This document shows, piece by piece, positions 14,996 through 21,900 of a DNA stretch of 32,975 nt. Below the pieces are notes generated by a model. That model was not told the origin of the DNA. It worked only from the letters and a program-made list of their open reading frames with translations, and ran no database searches. Each line of letters starts with the position of its first letter. Position 1 is the first letter of the stretch. This stretch comes from Thermoanaerobaculia bacterium (GTDB lineage: Bacteria; Acidobacteriota; Thermoanaerobaculia; Multivoradales; JAHEKO01): assembly GCA_945787635.1 (NCBI GenBank), contig CALZIK010000125.1:1-32975 (forward strand), read 5' to 3'. The position numbers and the translations under genes are program-made.

Positions 14996-16431
14996 ACGAG
15001 CCCAATCGAGGCCGGGCGCGGGCCGAGCGCCCGCGGCGCTTCTTCGTCGAGACCTGGGGCTGCCAGATGAACGAGCTCGACAGTCAGCGGCTTTCGGGTC
15101 GGCTGATGGAGGAGGGCATGCTCCCCACCCGAGAGCCGTCCGAGGCGGATCTGATCCTGCTCAACTCGTGCAGCGTCCGCGAGAAGGCGGAGCAGAAGGT
15201 CTATTCGAGGCTCGGGGTCTACCGGCAGCTCAAGGACGAAAACCCCGGTCTCCTGATCGGTCTGTGCGGCTGTGTCGCCCAGGAGGCGGGGGAGCGCGCA
15301 CTCAAGCGAGTGCCAGACCTAGACTTCGTCCTCGGCCCCGCGCGGGTCGGCGAGATCCTCGACGTCCTGGCCGAGCGGCGCCGAGGCAAGCGACCGGTCG
15401 CCACGGGCTTTCCGGAGACGCTCGATCACGACTTCGACTCGATCTCGCGCGACGGCTCCTACAAGGGTATGGTCACGATCGTCGAAGGCTGCAACAAGAA
15501 CTGCACCTTCTGCATCGTGCCGCTGACCCGGGGCCCCGAGAGAAGCCGGACGCTGGGTGAGATCGTCGCCGAGGTTCGGCACCTGGTCGAGTACGGGTTT
15601 CGCGAGATCGAGCTTCTCGGCCAGACGGTCAACCACTGGCGCGAGCCGGGTGGGGGAGAGGACGGCCCGGATTTCGCCGACCTGCTCGACGCCGTCGCCC
15701 GGGTGCCGGGAGTCGAGCGGCTCCGATTCGTGACCTCGTATCCGAGGGACTTCACGCCCCGCATGGTCGAGCAGTTCGCCCGTCACGACAACATCAGTCC
15801 CTACCTGCACCTCCCGGTACAGTCCGGTTCGAACCCTGTGCTTCAGCGAATGGGCCGAGGCTACAGCATTGAAAGTTACTACGAGTTGGTCGCGGACCTC
15901 AGGCGGGCGCGGCCGGACATCGCACTCTCGACCGACCTCATCATCGGGTTTCCCGGGGAGACCGACGAGGACTTCGAGCAGACTCTGCGGCTGGTGACCG
16001 AAATCGAGTTCGGGAGCCTCTTCGCATTCAAGTACTCACCACGCCCGGGCACCGCCGCTCCACGCCTCGGCGAGGCGGTGAATCAGGCGATCGCCGACGA
16101 GCGCCTGCAGCGGATCTTCGCGGCGCAGGAGCCGATCCAGAGACGGCTCAATAGGCGGCTCGTGGGCACCGAGGTGGAAGTGCTGGTCACCGGCTGGGGA
16201 AAACGACCCGGCACGCAGACCGGAAGAACACCGTGTCACCGGCTGGTGCACTTTCCCCTCGAGGGAAGTCATCCGACACCCAACGGCGACATCGCCACCG
16301 TCAAGATCGAAGAGGCCCTCGCGCACAGCCTCATCGGAAGGCGCAACGGGGAGATCGGGGCCACTCGTCCCACGGATGTCCCCTCACAACTGGTTGTCCT
16401 GCGGGACGCCCCTACCGACGCGGCTTCCTGA
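14992..16431 (+). CDS. miaB: tRNA-2-methylthio-N6-dimethylallyladenosine synthase MiaB
   Basis: MiaB is a radical-SAM methylthiotransferase that adds a methylthio group to i6A37 in tRNAs reading UNN codons. The 479 residues show the UPF0004 domain cysteines (Cys24 in WGCQMN, Cys60 in NSCSVRE, Cys94 in CGCVAQ). They also show the radical-SAM cluster Cys167-x3-Cys171-x2-Cys174 (CNKNCTFC) and a C-terminal TRAM domain (about 380-450). WGCQMN favours MiaB over RimO and MtaB, though related methylthiotransferases cannot be fully excluded. The ATG overlaps the upstream stop (ATGA). It closes the long co-directional run; the next gene begins 170 bases on with its own candidate promoter. Confidence 0.95.
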   Translation: MNEPNRGRARAERPRRFFVETWGCQMNELDSQRLSGRLMEEGMLPTREPSEADLILLNSCSVREKAEQKVYSRLGVYRQLKDENPGLLIGLCGCVAQEAGERALKRVPDLDFVLGPARVGEILDVLAERRRGKRPVATGFPETLDHDFDSISRDGSYKGMVTIVEGCNKNCTFCIVPLTRGPERSRTLGEIVAEVRHLVEYGFREIELLGQTVNHWREPGGGEDGPDFADLLDAVARVPGVERLRFVTSYPRDFTPRMVEQFARHDNISPYLHLPVQSGSNPVLQRMGRGYSIESYYELVADLRRARPDIALSTDLIIGFPGETDEDFEQTLRLVTEIEFGSLFAFKYSPRPGTAAPRLGEAVNQAIADERLQRIFAAQEPIQRRLNRRLVGTEVEVLVTGWGKRPGTQTGRTPCHRLVHFPLEGSHPTPNGDIATVKIEEALAHSLIGRRNGEIGATRPTDVPSQLVVLRDAPTDAAS

Positions 16432-16601: not shown

Positions 16602-17105
16602 ATGACGGAGCCCCCCATCGACACGGTCAGCGTGGAGATCAAGGGGCTGGTTCTGGATCCTTCGTCCAACCTCCCGATCGTCGTGCTCCGCGACATCGTT
16701 GGTGATCGCCTGCTCCCGATCTGGATCGGTCTCTTCGAAGCCCAAGCCATCGCGCTGCGGCTCGAGGGCGTCGCGACGCCCCGGCCGATGACCCACGACC
16801 TGCTGCTCAACCTGGTCGAGGGCACCCGGGCCAAGGTGAGCCGGGTGATCGTCAGCGACCTGGTGGACAACACCTTCTATGCTGAGATTCACGTCCAGCA
16901 CGGTCCCGACGAAGAAGTCATCGATTCGAGACCGAGCGACGCCATCGCACTCGCGCTCCGCGCCGAGGCGCCCCTGTTCGTGCACCAGCAGGTGTTCGAG
17001 AAAGCAAAGATCTCGGGCCTGACCGACAAGCTGGGAGACGACGAGCGCCTCAAGCAGTGGCTCGAGGAAGCCGACCCCGAAGACTTCGGCAAGTACGAGA
17101 TGTAA
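16602..17105 (+). CDS. Bifunctional nuclease family (BFN/DUF151) protein
   Basis: The 167 residues match the DUF151 family: VSVEIKGLVLDPSSNLPIVVLRD, the LPIWIGLFEAQAIALRLEG segment, MTHDLLLNLVEG, and SRPSDAIALALRAEAPLFV. The plant founding member was reported to have RNase and DNase activity. In bacteria the function is poorly defined. The C-terminal tail is acidic (QWLEEADPEDFG). The frame is open to TTG at 16566 and ATG at 16575. I chose the ATG at 16602 because the domain begins just after it and the upstream part looks like promoter DNA. The immediate 3' flank carries a palindromic repeat. Confidence 0.9.
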   Translation: MTEPPIDTVSVEIKGLVLDPSSNLPIVVLRDIVGDRLLPIWIGLFEAQAIALRLEGVATPRPMTHDLLLNLVEGTRAKVSRVIVSDLVDNTFYAEIHVQHGPDEEVIDSRPSDAIALALRAEAPLFVHQQVFEKAKISGLTDKLGDDERLKQWLEEADPEDFGKYEM

Positions 17106-17108
17106 TCC

Positions 17109-17138
17109 GGGGCACCCTTCCAAGGTGTCCCCTCCCGA
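17109..17138 (+). repeat. Palindromic REP-like element, left copy
   Basis: GGGG-CACC and GGTG-T-CCCC fold into a short imperfect hairpin (17109-17132), which starts four bases after the bfn stop and is followed by TCCCGAC. A closely related element in the opposite orientation lies at 20203-20238. The core AAGGTGTCCCC is identical in both. It could also act as a weak terminator for bfn, but no T-run follows. Confidence 0.55.
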
Positions 17139-17172
17139 CTAATTCTGCTGTGCCTCGGTCGGCCTGCGCCCC

Positions 17173-17188
17173 GGTGTCCCCTCGCGAC
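17173..17188 (+). repeat. Second partial copy of the GGTGTCCCC repeat
   Basis: GGTGTCCCCTCGCGAC repeats 17124-17139 with one mismatch, 49 bases downstream and in direct orientation. The upstream arm of the hairpin is not preserved, so this looks like a partial or decayed copy. Confidence 0.5.
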
Positions 17189-17366
17189 CGCGACGGGCCG
17201 GTTCGTTCTTGGAGCCGTCCTTTGTCAGTGGGTAGCGCGGTCGGCGTCTCCGTCGATCGACCCTCTGCCCATCGGTCGTACTCTCGCCAGCGGTGTCATC
17301 CTGGCGACCTCTTCCGGCGTACGGCCTACCTCTCGGGAGGGTAGCCGTACCCCTCCTCCGGGGCGT

Positions 17367-17375
17367 TGTTAGATT
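17367..17375 (+). promoter_or_regulatory. Candidate extended -10 promoter for the 850-residue gene
   Basis: TGT followed by TAGATT resembles an extended -10 element (four of six matches to TATAAT plus TGn). No -35 is evident at the right distance, since that position falls in the hairpin at 17319-17350. It lies just after that hairpin and about 145 bases before the ATG. Confidence 0.3.
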
Positions 17376-17518
17376 GCCCACAGGGCCCTAGCGTGTCAGT
17401 AAGTGGGAAAGTCGGCCGGCGGCAAGCCGGCCTAGCTGCTTCCGGCGCCGCAAGTTCTTCTGCCCGCCGCGGAGACGGTGTCGGGCGCTCCGGACACCCG
17501 ATTCGAAGGGAGAGCATC

Positions 17519-20071
17519 ATGAGGAACCCAACGCGCCGAGGCTTCCGACGGTCTTTCGCACCCGCAACACTCGTGTTCGTGGCCGGCTCACTGCTTGCAG
17601 CGGGCGTTATCGCACCCGGGCCGACCTGGCTCTACGTCCTGCTGGCCCTCGTCATCGTCGTTCTCGGCTGCCTCGTCAACCGCTCGACCGCTCAGCTCTT
17701 GGTGGGCTTCCTGGGCACCGCGTTTCCGTCCGTCGACTGGATCCTCAAGCTCTCCGGCCGTCGCAAGGCATTCGCTGAAGTCATCGACAACATGAACCGC
17801 ATCCTGGCCGACCTGGGTCAGCGAAGGCCCAAGAAAGAGGACCTGGAGCAGCTCGCCCAAAGTCCTCCGCATCGAGCGGAAGACGACGTCAACGCTTGCG
17901 CGATCGCCTTCGCCGAAAGACTCGACGATGACCTATCGGGCGAATCTCCTTCGAGCCTCCTGGCGCGCCTCACGCAGACCTTCTCGGCACTGCGCAGCCC
18001 CGCGAGGCCTTTAATGGCCGACGTCTACGAGCTCTTCTATCGAGAGCGGCACGGCCCACCGATACACGGCCTGTTCGGGCGCCTGAACTCAGAGCAGCAG
18101 CTCCGCGTGGCGCGGATCCTGGCCACCAGCAACAACTTCCCAGCACTCGCAGAGAACGAGGACAGGGTCGAGTTGGTTGGCTGGGTACTCGGACGTCTGA
18201 GAGGCGAGTTCAGCATCGAGGCCGCAACCAGCGAGCTTCGAGCCTTGAGCGATGTCTGGCACCTTCTGCACGGCTACGTGGAATACCTCGGTGCAGAGGG
18301 AATCGCCGCTGACCTCGACCTCGGTCGACTTCGAAAGAAGATCGAGGAGATCTCCGGCGGTCAGCTCGCATCCGACTTCGGCGCAGTCGCACACGTGATC
18401 CTCACCACCATGGGGCGGGAGTTGATTCGGTCTTGGCTGCCCTTGGTGAGCCTGGTCAAGCCCCAAGAGGACACCCAAGCCACCGAACCCACCCAGGCTG
18501 AGACCGACGCTCTGGTCGCCGGTCTCACGGATGTCAGTGCCGGTATCTACACCGCCGAGACAATCTCGCCCGAGCATCCTCTGCTCGCCGAACTCGCCCT
18601 CGAAACTGCGCGAGCGAGCAAAGAGAAAAACCTCGCAAAACCCATGCTTCTCGCCTACCTCTGGGCACGCAGCCGGCCCGACCGACCCGACCAGCCCAGC
18701 CTGACAACACCGGCTACGCTCAGCGAGCTTGCCGAGGGCTGGCGCAGTTGGGCCGACTCGTTGAGCGCGGCCGCCGGTCCGGGCTTTCGCCGGGAGCTGG
18801 AGGCGGTCTTGACCTCGAACCTCCGGCGGCAGATCTGGCCCACCTACCTGCCCGTTCAGCAGGCGGTCGCCGAGAGCGTGCTCGAGAGCCGGAAGTTCCT
18901 GGACGAGTTCGAGAAGCTCGCGGCGAGCGGGCACAAGGACGACAAATGGCGAGCCGACCTCGAGAATCTGGCCTCGCGCATCAGCGCCGTCGCCGAACGC
19001 TCACTCGACCCGCGAGCCCTGAATCAGCTCGACGAGCCGGCCCTAATCGAGACCACCCGGTTGGCAGCCGCGGACTACCTGCGGGGCCTGGTCCCGCCGC
19101 AAGATGGAGCGACGCCCCCCGAGACATCTATCGACGTCCAACGGAGGCTCGAGAGCTTCACCGATGAGCTCCGCGACGAAGCCCGGCTCCGGGATCATCT
19201 GGAGGGGTACGACTCGGTGTTCGAAACGCTGGCGCTGTTTCGCGACCGCGCCGACGATCTCAGCCGGCAACTCGACGATCTGGTCTGCCTGCTCAAGGCC
19301 GAGGCCGCCGGCGGATCGGCCTACCTCATCACCTTCGATCAAGTCACCGGCGGAATCGCCAAGGTCATCGACCAACTCAAGCCCAAGTACGGCTTCAAGA
19401 ACTACACTCGCTACACCCGCCTCGGCCGATTGCGTCCCGGCGACACCTTCGAGTCGTTCTACGCCCGCTTCGAGGCCGACCTCGAGAAGCGGCTTGAAAC
19501 GGCCTTTGGCGACGCTGCCAAGGTGTTGCGAGACTGCGACCGGGAGCAGCTCGAGGACGCCAAGAGGCGTTTTCACCGAACCCTCGAGGCGGTCGTCGAG
19601 CCCCTCGAAAAGCCTGCCGAGGCCGAGGTGTCGATTCCGGCTGAGATGCCACGACAACGGCACGCCTGGAAGTACCGACGGTTCAAAGACCTGCCCGGCG
19701 CGCCCTTCGACGCCTTCTTCGCCCGGGCGTGGGCGGATCTCGAACGCCAGCTCCTCGAGCACTTTCCATGGGTGCCCAGCGAGACGCGACACGCTGCGGT
19801 CAACAGATGGCTCGAGCTCGCGCGAACCGCCGCGGTGTGGGACCGGATCGAGATCACGGTCCAGCAGGTCAGCCTCTTCCACCGGCACGACTTCGCGATG
19901 GACGCCCGGCACGATCTCGGCCCGCGGCTCGGCAAGTCGTACTCCAAGGTGTTCCGGGTGCCGCCGTCGAGCGCGCTTGTGGAGACCGCGATCGTGCCGC
20001 CAAGGTTCGAGCAACCTCGGCCTGGCCGAGAGCTTAGGTCGCCCGCGGTCGAAGAAGCTCGAGCCTCCTGA
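17519..20071 (+). CDS. Unrecognised 850-residue membrane-anchored helical protein
   Basis: I do not recognise a family. The ATG at 17519 is chosen because AAGGGAG (17506-17512) sits at good spacing and the protein then begins with basic residues and two hydrophobic helices (about 18-35 and 37-56). The rest is a long, charged, apparently helical cytoplasmic region. Near the C-terminus a segment is duplicated: FESFYARFEADLEKRLETAF at 644-663 and a similar FDAFFARAWADLERQLLEHF at 730-749, each preceded by a Tyr/Arg-rich stretch. No Walker, HTH, protease or nuclease motif is visible. It sits alone between bfn and parA, bracketed by inverted palindromic repeats, so it may be accessory. Codon use looks native and G+C-rich. 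Confidence 0.8.
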   Translation: MRNPTRRGFRRSFAPATLVFVAGSLLAAGVIAPGPTWLYVLLALVIVVLGCLVNRSTAQLLVGFLGTAFPSVDWILKLSGRRKAFAEVIDNMNRILADLGQRRPKKEDLEQLAQSPPHRAEDDVNACAIAFAERLDDDLSGESPSSLLARLTQTFSALRSPARPLMADVYELFYRERHGPPIHGLFGRLNSEQQLRVARILATSNNFPALAENEDRVELVGWVLGRLRGEFSIEAATSELRALSDVWHLLHGYVEYLGAEGIAADLDLGRLRKKIEEISGGQLASDFGAVAHVILTTMGRELIRSWLPLVSLVKPQEDTQATEPTQAETDALVAGLTDVSAGIYTAETISPEHPLLAELALETARASKEKNLAKPMLLAYLWARSRPDRPDQPSLTTPATLSELAEGWRSWADSLSAAAGPGFRRELEAVLTSNLRRQIWPTYLPVQQAVAESVLESRKFLDEFEKLAASGHKDDKWRADLENLASRISAVAERSLDPRALNQLDEPALIETTRLAAADYLRGLVPPQDGATPPETSIDVQRRLESFTDELRDEARLRDHLEGYDSVFETLALFRDRADDLSRQLDDLVCLLKAEAAGGSAYLITFDQVTGGIAKVIDQLKPKYGFKNYTRYTRLGRLRPGDTFESFYARFEADLEKRLETAFGDAAKVLRDCDREQLEDAKRRFHRTLEAVVEPLEKPAEAEVSIPAEMPRQRHAWKYRRFKDLPGAPFDAFFARAWADLERQLLEHFPWVPSETRHAAVNRWLELARTAAVWDRIEITVQQVSLFHRHDFAMDARHDLGPRLGKSYSKVFRVPPSSALVETAIVPPRFEQPRPGRELRSPAVEEARAS

Positions 20072-20144
20072 GGCGCCCTGGCCTCGTCGGGGCCGGAGGC
20101 CCTTCGCTTCAAGAGGAGAGCGGCTCACATTCGCACCATCAGAA

Positions 20145-20160
20145 TGTCGGCGCGCCGACA
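20145..20160. promoter_or_regulatory. 16-bp perfect palindrome upstream of parA
   Basis: TGTCGGCGCGCCGACA is a perfect 16-bp palindrome 114 bases before the parA ATG. It shares only the outer TGT...ACA with the usual chromosomal parS (also 16 bp). It could be an operator or a divergent parS, but about one such palindrome per window is expected by chance in G+C-rich DNA. Confidence 0.25.
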
Positions 20161-20202
20161 ACGGAAACAGTTGCGTGACGCCCGCAGGCGCCGTGGTAAA
20201 AC

Positions 20203-20238
20203 CGGTCGGGTGGGGGACACCTTGAGAAAGGTCTCCCC
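20203..20238 (-). repeat. Palindromic REP-like element, right copy (inverted)
   Basis: GGGGA-C-ACCTT and AAGGT-C-TCCCC pair around a GAGA loop (20213-20238): 10 bp with one C/C mismatch. Read on the minus strand, AAGGTGTCCCC is followed by CACCCGAC, matching the left element's AAGGTGTCCCC-T-CCCGAC. It ends 35 bases before parA. It could also be a transcription end for the 850-residue gene. Confidence 0.55.
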
Positions 20239-20251
20239 GATCCCATACACT
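20222..20251 (+). promoter_or_regulatory. Weak candidate promoter for parAB
   Basis: TTGAGA (20222-20227) and TACACT (20246-20251) are 18 bases apart and point towards parA. The -35 overlaps the loop and right arm of the palindromic element. Matches are 4/6 or better at each hexamer, which is modest. Confidence 0.25.
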
Positions 20252-20273: not shown

Positions 20274-21032
20274 ATGATCATCGCGATCACCAACCAAAAG
20301 GGCGGGGTGGGGAAGACGACCACCGCTATCAATCTCGCGGCTGCGCTGGCGTCAAAAGGCTTGGCGACCCTGCTGATCGACCTCGATCCGCAGGCCAACA
20401 GCTCGATGTCGTTTCTCGACCTTTCGAAGCCGCATCGGGGCGTCTACGAGGCACTCACCGAGCCAGGCGTGGGGATCTCGGATGTGACGCAGCCGGCGGA
20501 AAAGCTGGCGCAACTCAAGGTGGCTCCGTCTTCGATCCACCTGGCCAAGATCGAGGCCAAACTCCTGGGCGAGATCGACAGCTACTACCGCCTCAAGGAC
20601 GAGATCGAACTGATCCGGAAAGACTACGACTACATCGTGATCGACACACCCCCGACCCTGGGCATCATCACGGTGAACGCGCTCGCCGCGGCGAGTCACG
20701 TCCTGATTCCGATCCAATCCAGCTATTTCGCGCTGGAGGGGACCGACGACCTGCTCGAGACGATCGACAAGATCAAGCAGCGGACCAACCCGGAGTTGCA
20801 GATCCTGGGAGCGGTGCTCACGCTCTACGACAAGCGCACCCTCCTGTCGCGGGACATCCACGAACAGGTGTCGCAGGTCTTCGGGGAGAAGCTGTTCGAG
20901 ACCGTGATCTCGAAGAGCGTGCGGCTCGAGGAGAGCCCGGCCTACCGGGAGTCGATCTTCACCTACTCGCCGCGCTCGACCGGCGCCTACGAGTACTACA
21001 AACTCTCCGAGGAGATCCTCAGCCGTGTCTAG
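20274..21032 (+). CDS. parA: ParA/Soj-type chromosome partitioning ATPase
   Basis: ParA is a Walker-type ATPase that dimerises on DNA and moves ParB-bound origins. The 252 residues include the deviant Walker A KGGVGKTT (9-16), DLDPQANSS, and IDTPPTLG. There is no N-terminal HTH, as in chromosomal Soj. The next gene, parB, overlaps by eight bases. The ATG is preceded by no strong Shine-Dalgarno; a four-codon frame (ATG AGC ACT GCA TGA) overlaps the start. The pair may mark a region not far from the replication origin, but no dnaA, rsmG or mnmG gene is present. Confidence 0.95.
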   Translation: MIIAITNQKGGVGKTTTAINLAAALASKGLATLLIDLDPQANSSMSFLDLSKPHRGVYEALTEPGVGISDVTQPAEKLAQLKVAPSSIHLAKIEAKLLGEIDSYYRLKDEIELIRKDYDYIVIDTPPTLGIITVNALAAASHVLIPIQSSYFALEGTDDLLETIDKIKQRTNPELQILGAVLTLYDKRTLLSRDIHEQVSQVFGEKLFETVISKSVRLEESPAYRESIFTYSPRSTGAYEYYKLSEEILSRV

Positions 21033-21900
21033 AACCTCCGCCCGCCGCGGCCTTCCCGTGCGCGTGAAGATGCGCCACGACCAACACTTCGTCGAAGAAC
21101 TCACCACCCGGAGCGGGGACGACTCGATCGGCCGAATGCTGCCCCTTGGCCGGATCGAGCCCGATCCGAACCAGCCGCGCAGCTCGATGGGCGACCTGGC
21201 CGAGTTGATCGACTCGATCCGCGCCAAGGGCGTACTCGAGCCGATTCTCGTGCGGGCTCTTGACGACGCCGAAGAGCCGCGTACCAAGTACCGGATCATC
21301 TCCGGCGAGCGGCGTTTTCAGGCCTGCAAGGCGATCGGCGTCGACGAGATTCCGTCGATCATCATGGACGTCGAGGAGGACGAGGCTCTCGAGATCGCTC
21401 TGGTCGAAAACCTCCAGCGCAAAGACCTGACGCCCTTCGAAGCGGCCGAGGGTTATCGGGCTCTGGGCGACATCCACGGCTACACCCAGGAACAGATCGC
21501 CAAGGCCGTCAGCCAGTCCCGCGTCGCGGTCACCGAGAGCCTGCAACTGCTCAAGCTGTCCCAGCGCGTGCGAGGCGCCGCCGACGCCCTGGGCGTTCAC
21601 TCCAAGTCGCTCCTTCTCGGGGTGCAGAAGGCTGGCGAAACAGAGACCGAGCAGATTCGCCTGCTCGAACGGATCGCCGCGCAGGAGATCACTCGCGACG
21701 ACCTTCGGGAGCGGGCCCGAAGCCGGAAACGCGGCGGCCGCAAACCGACCGGGGCCGGCCGCAAGCCCGTCTTCACCTTCAAGGACCCCGAGAAGAAGTT
21801 CAGCCTGTCGGTGAAGTTCCGCCAGACCGAGGTGGAAAAGAACGACCTGATCTCGGCTCTCGAGCAGATCCTCGAGGAGCTCCGAGCCAGCTCCGACTAG
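21025..21900 (+). CDS. parB: ParB/Spo0J-type partition protein
   Basis: ParB is a CTP-dependent DNA clamp loaded at parS. The 291 residues have the N-terminal CTPase motifs GERRFQA (94-100) and ENLQRKDL (128-135), a helix-turn-helix (about 153-177, YTQEQIAKAVSQS), and a C-terminal dimerisation segment after a basic linker (RSRKRGGRKPTGAGRK). The HTH recognition part reads SRVAVTESLQLLKL, where most chromosomal ParBs have an SRxxVxNxLRLLxL pattern, hinting at altered site preference (inference). The GTG start is eight bases inside parA. No canonical parS was found in the window. Confidence 0.94.
   Translation: MSRTSARRGLPVRVKMRHDQHFVEELTTRSGDDSIGRMLPLGRIEPDPNQPRSSMGDLAELIDSIRAKGVLEPILVRALDDAEEPRTKYRIISGERRFQACKAIGVDEIPSIIMDVEEDEALEIALVENLQRKDLTPFEAAEGYRALGDIHGYTQEQIAKAVSQSRVAVTESLQLLKLSQRVRGAADALGVHSKSLLLGVQKAGETETEQIRLLERIAAQEITRDDLRERARSRKRGGRKPTGAGRKPVFTFKDPEKKFSLSVKFRQTEVEKNDLISALEQILEELRASSD

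Follow-up and report, generated by a model that had tools for sequence, protein, structure and literature searches.

Does a gene that stands between two facing hairpin elements belong to a mobile cassette, or did it come to lie between repeats that were already there? This question is raised by contig CALZIK010000125.1 of the metagenome-assembled genome GCA_945787635.1 (4.36 Mb in 203 contigs), which represents a Thermoanaerobaculia bacterium (phylum Acidobacteriota), a placement shared by its nearest named ParA neighbours, and of which the whole 32,975 nt analysed here are called the window. Between bfn, a gene of the bifunctional nuclease family, and the partition genes parA and parB, the window carries a gene for an 850-amino-acid protein bracketed by two hairpin elements in inverted orientation. 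A preliminary description of this interval offered two readings: a cassette moved in trans by a transposase of the repetitive extragenic palindrome (REP) type, or simply dispersed repeats flanking a gene. Our analysis favours the latter. It is highly probable that, taken as a whole, the best explanation is that the two facing elements pre-existed at both ends of the bfn-parA gap and are not the transposon ends of the 850-amino-acid gene.

The gene order miaB-bfn-parA-parB is kept through most of the taxonomic order, and the gap between bfn and parA measures ~100 to 690 bp where both genes are readable. In the two congeners available (G001 and G002), the gap is 239 or 331 bp long and holds no trace of the 850-amino-acid gene, which is thus not conserved at this place in all relatives. 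Both congeners nevertheless keep a minus-strand element directly after the bfn stop codon and a plus-strand element upstream of the parA promoter; therefore, the repeats are independent of the gene. Because the congeners keep the repeats without the gene and the gene is confined, within the class, to this species apart from one distant homologue, its lineage-specific insertion between existing repeats is the simplest reading and a probable one. In the order of events that we propose, independent copies of a genus-restricted hairpin family would have occupied both ends of the gap, and the 850-amino-acid gene would later have been inserted between them in the lineage of this species. The features of the interval and its surroundings, in the coordinates of the window, are the following:

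16343..16408, minus strand: degenerate hairpin-repeat copy overlapping the 3' end of miaB (model R1, 30.7 bits)
16608..17105, plus strand: bfn, bifunctional nuclease family, upstream of the gap (Pfam PF02577, E 7e-41)
17105..17146, minus strand: left hairpin-repeat copy, its tail abutting the bfn stop codon (model R1, 63.5 bits)
17167..17190, minus strand: half copy of the hairpin repeat, with the head and first arm and without the second arm (direct repeat D10, 94%)
17519..20071, plus strand: 850-amino-acid gene, with two predicted N-terminal membrane helices
20145..20160, no strand: palindrome TGTCGGCGCGCCGACA, candidate non-canonical parS of the adjoining parAB
20198..20241, plus strand: right hairpin-repeat copy, at the same place in both congeners (model R1, 62.3 bits)
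20222..20251, plus strand: parA promoter-like site TTGAGA-18-TACACT, its -35 hexamer within the right hairpin
20274..21032, plus strand: parA of the bfn-linked partition pair (Pfam AAA_31, E 1.8e-56)
21025..21900, plus strand: parB of the bfn-linked pair (ParB_N and a divergent HTH_ParB; no ParB_C match)

The sequence agrees with the description of two facing palindromic elements around the gene: the 12-nt arm CAAGGTGTCCCC at 17121-17132 recurs, perfectly reverse-complemented, at 20213-20224, and hairpins were obtained on folding at both full sites (-14.3 and -23.5 kcal/mol). The partial copy reported at 17173 (GGTGTCCCCTCGCGAC) is also present, matching at 15 of 16 positions, and yielded no stable hairpin on folding. 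The palindrome had been correctly recognised, but the boundaries given for the element do not hold, because the element is longer than the hairpin; an alignment of the first ten copies revealed a conserved head of 14 nt preceding it. The core AAGGTGTCCCC occurs 14 times in the genome, compared with two occurrences of the reversed control word, and a covariance model raises the number of copies to ~46, so the repeats are far from absent elsewhere in the genome.

At E<=0.001, this covariance model detected 46 copies in the present genome and more in the two congeners (73 and 76), whereas 22 further genomes from the same taxonomic family and order had none. The family consensus, obtained from 57 aligned copies, is AAAACCAGTCGGGA-GGGGACACC-nnG-GAAn-GGTGTCCCC-GAT. 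In the same alignment, the stem is paired in 97% of cells, and stem cells in which both bases have changed number 41, versus 13 in shuffles and 1-5 in slid controls; the loop-closing pair varies among A-U, U-A, G-C and C-G. According to a simple codon-bias gene caller, 46 of the 52 classifiable copies are intergenic (25 in tandem, 18 in convergent and 3 in divergent gaps). A gene 3' end lies near the tail in 33 of the 57 copies and near the head in 17; copies with a 3' end near the tail only are more frequent than those with one near the head only (21 versus 5, approximate p=0.0025), and the spacing from stop codon to tail is most often 0 to 5 nt. These data establish a multicopy family that is restricted to the genus, has covarying arms and is preferentially oriented with its tail toward stop codons. 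It represents a set of unnamed, genus-restricted hairpin repeats similar to REPs and to terminal inverted repeats (TIRs), new to the few repeats known in Acidobacteriota. There is about an even chance that the copies now form hairpins just past the stop codons in transcripts of the genes that they follow.

The family resembles REPs in several respects: its members are short hairpins with a 3-nt tail and, at one end, a conserved head that is unpaired; they number in the dozens, lie mostly outside genes and close to gene 3' ends, show compensatory stem changes and are confined to close relatives. It differs from them in its copy number, which is at the low end (about 46-76), in its head CCAGTCGGGA, which is not GTAG/GTGG or CGTC, and in that no REP-associated tyrosine transposase (RAYT) was found flanked by two inverted copies. 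The CGTC repeats likewise lack a flanked cognate RAYT (PMC3733652). A second comparison is with the TIR-associated tyrosine transposases (TIRYTs), which are known in Acidobacteria; one well-defined group of these enzymes is acidobacterial, and some of their flanking repeats share the motif GGGGWSAS (Di Nocera 2013, PMC3733652). The arm GGGGACAC, found in nearly all 57 copies, fits this motif of the TIRYT-flanking TIRs.

The genome contains two Y1_Tnp genes, one of which scores above the NCBIfam cut-off for RAYTs. A REP-associated transposase, which the preliminary description had suggested looking for, is thus present, but it is flanked by an unrelated repeat: clusters of a GTAG-headed repeat, TGTAGCGGTCGAC..GTCGACCG, lie on both sides of the gene (L015 1-1000, contig C112). 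As these belong to a different family, this transposase was rejected as the mover of the hairpin family. In genome G009, from the same taxonomic family, long hairpins whose arms read GGGGACAC lie on both sides of a Y1 gene (L099 1054-1842); congener G001 has a Y1 gene (L242) bracketed by GGGGACAGGC repeats. The Y1-flanking repeats in both genomes carry GGGGACA and differ from the dispersed element outside that core, so the link is one of motif and not of identity. The arms of the flanking hairpins in G009 also read GGGGACACAAACC. Because the arm of the family fits GGGGWSAS and Y1 genes of relatives are flanked by GGGGACAC or GGGGACAGGC repeats, we infer that a TIRYT-like enzyme acting in trans would be the preferred mover. 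It is somewhat likely that a Y1/HUH transposase of the TIRYT or RAYT kind spread the copies, acting in trans on them as non-autonomous single-stranded hairpins.

The 850-amino-acid gene had been called unrecognised, and our searches agree: the frame 17519-20071 has no Pfam, NCBIfam, PADLOC or PHROG family above cut-off. As there was no PADLOC match, identification as a defence gene was dropped. Hydropathy indicates two N-terminal membrane segments (residues ~13-53), and the rest of the protein is predicted, by a poor model, to be mainly helical. An AlphaFold model of the protein with one homologue had a mean pLDDT (predicted local distance difference test score) of 37.6 and no usable fold; a Foldseek comparison of that model with the PDB returned nothing at E<=0.001, and a sequence search against solved structures gave chance-level matches only (best E, 0.035). 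The gene has a GC content of 65% (80% at third codon positions, GC3); in GC content and codon use it is like its neighbours, though at the low end. It is present once in the genome and is missing from all 17 genus or family genomes searched. A class-wide search of 149 genomes found one other carrier, G028, which belongs to a different family and has the homologue (36% identity) at a different location, and a phylum-level sample of 396 genomes contained no carrier besides this genome. No relatives were found in plasmids, phages, viral contigs or genome contigs. In G028 (L131 4669-15694), a TPR-CHAT protein adjoins the homologue, and a caspase-domain protein and a GTPase/DUF697-like protein are encoded within 9 kb, unlike the gene of the window, which stands alone. 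These neighbours are reminiscent of bacterial conflict or regulated-death systems, which is taken here as a lead only.

Between the gene and the right repeat lies the palindrome TGTCGGCGCGCCGACA (20145-20160), which occurs nowhere else in the genome when up to one mismatch is allowed. It is present in nearly every readable bfn-parA gap of the order. Among 59 acidobacterial loci (named records fetched with ParA), it accompanies parAB in 46, one of them with one mismatch; 29 of these copies are located upstream of parA, some without an adjacent bfn, and 17 lie in frame inside parB. None of 21 loci from other phyla contained it; the positive control, a clostridial locus, showed the canonical parS ~40 bp before parA. 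In the 17 parB-internal copies, which encode C-R-[RH]-A-D, every base of the palindrome is fixed except the centre (GC or AT), and the Cys codon is always TGT, whereas elsewhere in these genes TGC outnumbers TGT by 28 to 8. Nearly all copies found in nine genomes, which represent this genus and other families, are within a few kilobases of the bfn-linked parAB, and several genomes have 2-4 copies at the parAB locus. An association of the palindrome with bfn itself was considered and dismissed, as the palindrome remains beside parA at loci that have no neighbouring bfn (L141, L142, L143 and L145). In one taxonomic family (L236 in G027; L045-L047), parB is still present at the bfn-linked locus; parA was not detected at that locus, and the palindrome is missing as well.

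This palindrome resembles the canonical parS, TGTTTCACGTGAAACA, in that it is perfectly palindromic, 16 bp long, ends in TGT...ACA, and is linked to parAB in few copies, upstream of parA or inside parB; it differs in the ten inner bases. The canonical site was not detected at up to two mismatches in any of the acidobacterial loci fetched around the bfn-linked parAB, nor as an exact match in this genome. On reading the sequences of five relatives (L231-L235, from G037, G018, G023, G027 and G056, respectively), we identified a separate yidC-jag-parS-rsmG-parA-parB-bactofilin locus that contains TGTTTCACGTGAAACA. The ParB of the window also departs from the canonical proteins, with an HTH_ParB score of 49.7 bits versus 118 for canonical ParB and no ParB_C match, and the helix-turn-helix of its relatives reads SRxxVTESLxLL, versus SRxxVANxLRLL in canonical ParBs (VTES for VANx). 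The palindrome is probably a non-canonical parS of the ParAB adjoining the gap. More broadly, TGTCGGC-NN-GCCGACA is fairly likely, on these sequence comparisons, to be the parS of a second chromosomal ParABS in Thermoanaerobaculia and their neighbours, which would lie upstream of parA or inside parB, coexist with the canonical ParABS in the same genomes, and have changed together with the recognition helix of ParB. A literature search of limited reach found no description of such a system, which is weak evidence of novelty.

Could the gene and the facing repeats nonetheless constitute a single transposable cassette that a REP-type tyrosine transposase moves in trans? Inverted repeats face each other at both ends, the gene is unique to the species, and the genome encodes a REP-associated transposase. 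However, both repeats are in place without the gene in two congeners, the gene has only one copy in the genome, and the REP transposase carries a different repeat. In addition, the parAB palindrome between the gene and the right repeat would have to belong to the cassette, whereas in relatives its conservation goes together with parAB. We therefore consider this explanation very improbable, in disagreement with the first of the two readings originally offered. That the gene is ancestral at the locus and was lost by the congeners would accord with its codon use and GC content, which are close to those of native genes, but it is absent from the bfn-parA gap of all readable relatives, which represent several families, and from the class except for one species, where it occupies a different place; such a history appears improbable. 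An assembly or binning chimera might be suspected in a metagenome-assembled genome of 203 contigs carrying a gene that the congeners lack. However, the gene is located mid-contig between two repeats and a conserved palindrome, its GC content and GC3 fit the contig, and its nearest homologue comes from the same order, which makes an artefact extremely improbable.

Two further alternatives concern the nature of the repeats and of the palindrome. The hairpins might be ordinary terminators or 3' mRNA-end structures of native genes rather than mobile repeats, as their tails abut stop codons, few copies lie in divergent gaps, and all three species have a hairpin, the left copy, immediately after bfn. 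However, the 14-nt head and the GAT tail outside the stem are conserved beside unrelated genes, although terminators need neither; no U-tract follows the stem, and a terminator scan was negative at these sites. Dozens of similar copies confined to a single genus also point to copying, and we regard an origin as terminators as unlikely. For the palindrome, its frequent location 60-600 bp upstream of parA would also suit an operator for a parAB repressor. Against this stand the 17 loci that carry it in frame within parB, where all five codons are fixed and the Cys codon is TGT in every case, the presence of 2-4 copies in several genomes, and the same 16-bp length and TGT...ACA ends as the canonical parS; an operator rather than a partition site is possible but doubtful. 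Several points weigh against our own explanation of pre-existing mobile repeats and a later gene insertion. The sequence from the left element to the palindrome is not visibly alignable among the three species, which prevents the points at which the gene was inserted from being delimited; moreover, these three are the only members of the genus for comparison, and both congeners could conceivably have lost the gene. The orientation statistic uses a home-made codon-bias gene caller, and its p-value is approximate; the aligned copies are the top-scoring ones and are partly orthologous across genomes. Finally, the head of the family is not GTAG, and no examined Y1 transposase gene in the genus is convincingly flanked by the exact hairpin element.

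Some copies of the family may have affected adjoining genes. The parA promoter-like site of the congeners, TTGACC-17-TACACT, does not overlap the hairpin. The window has the same TACACT without this -35 box, and a TTGAGA that belongs to the hairpin is located at a distance of 18 bp from TACACT; the right repeat may thus now supply part of the parA promoter. The degenerate copy that overlaps the 3' coding end of miaB may likewise have altered the MiaB C-terminus.

The bfn-parA interval is a clear example of a gene that arrived between repeats already in place, and it cautions against reading cassettes from single genomes. The hairpin family, with its TIRYT-like arm, extends the few repeats known in Acidobacteriota. 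The candidate parS, a by-product of this analysis, may matter more than the repeat finding itself: the 16-bp palindrome accompanies a second parAB pair through much of the class and, if it is truly a parS, would represent a natural ParB-parS pair of changed specificity beside a canonical pair.

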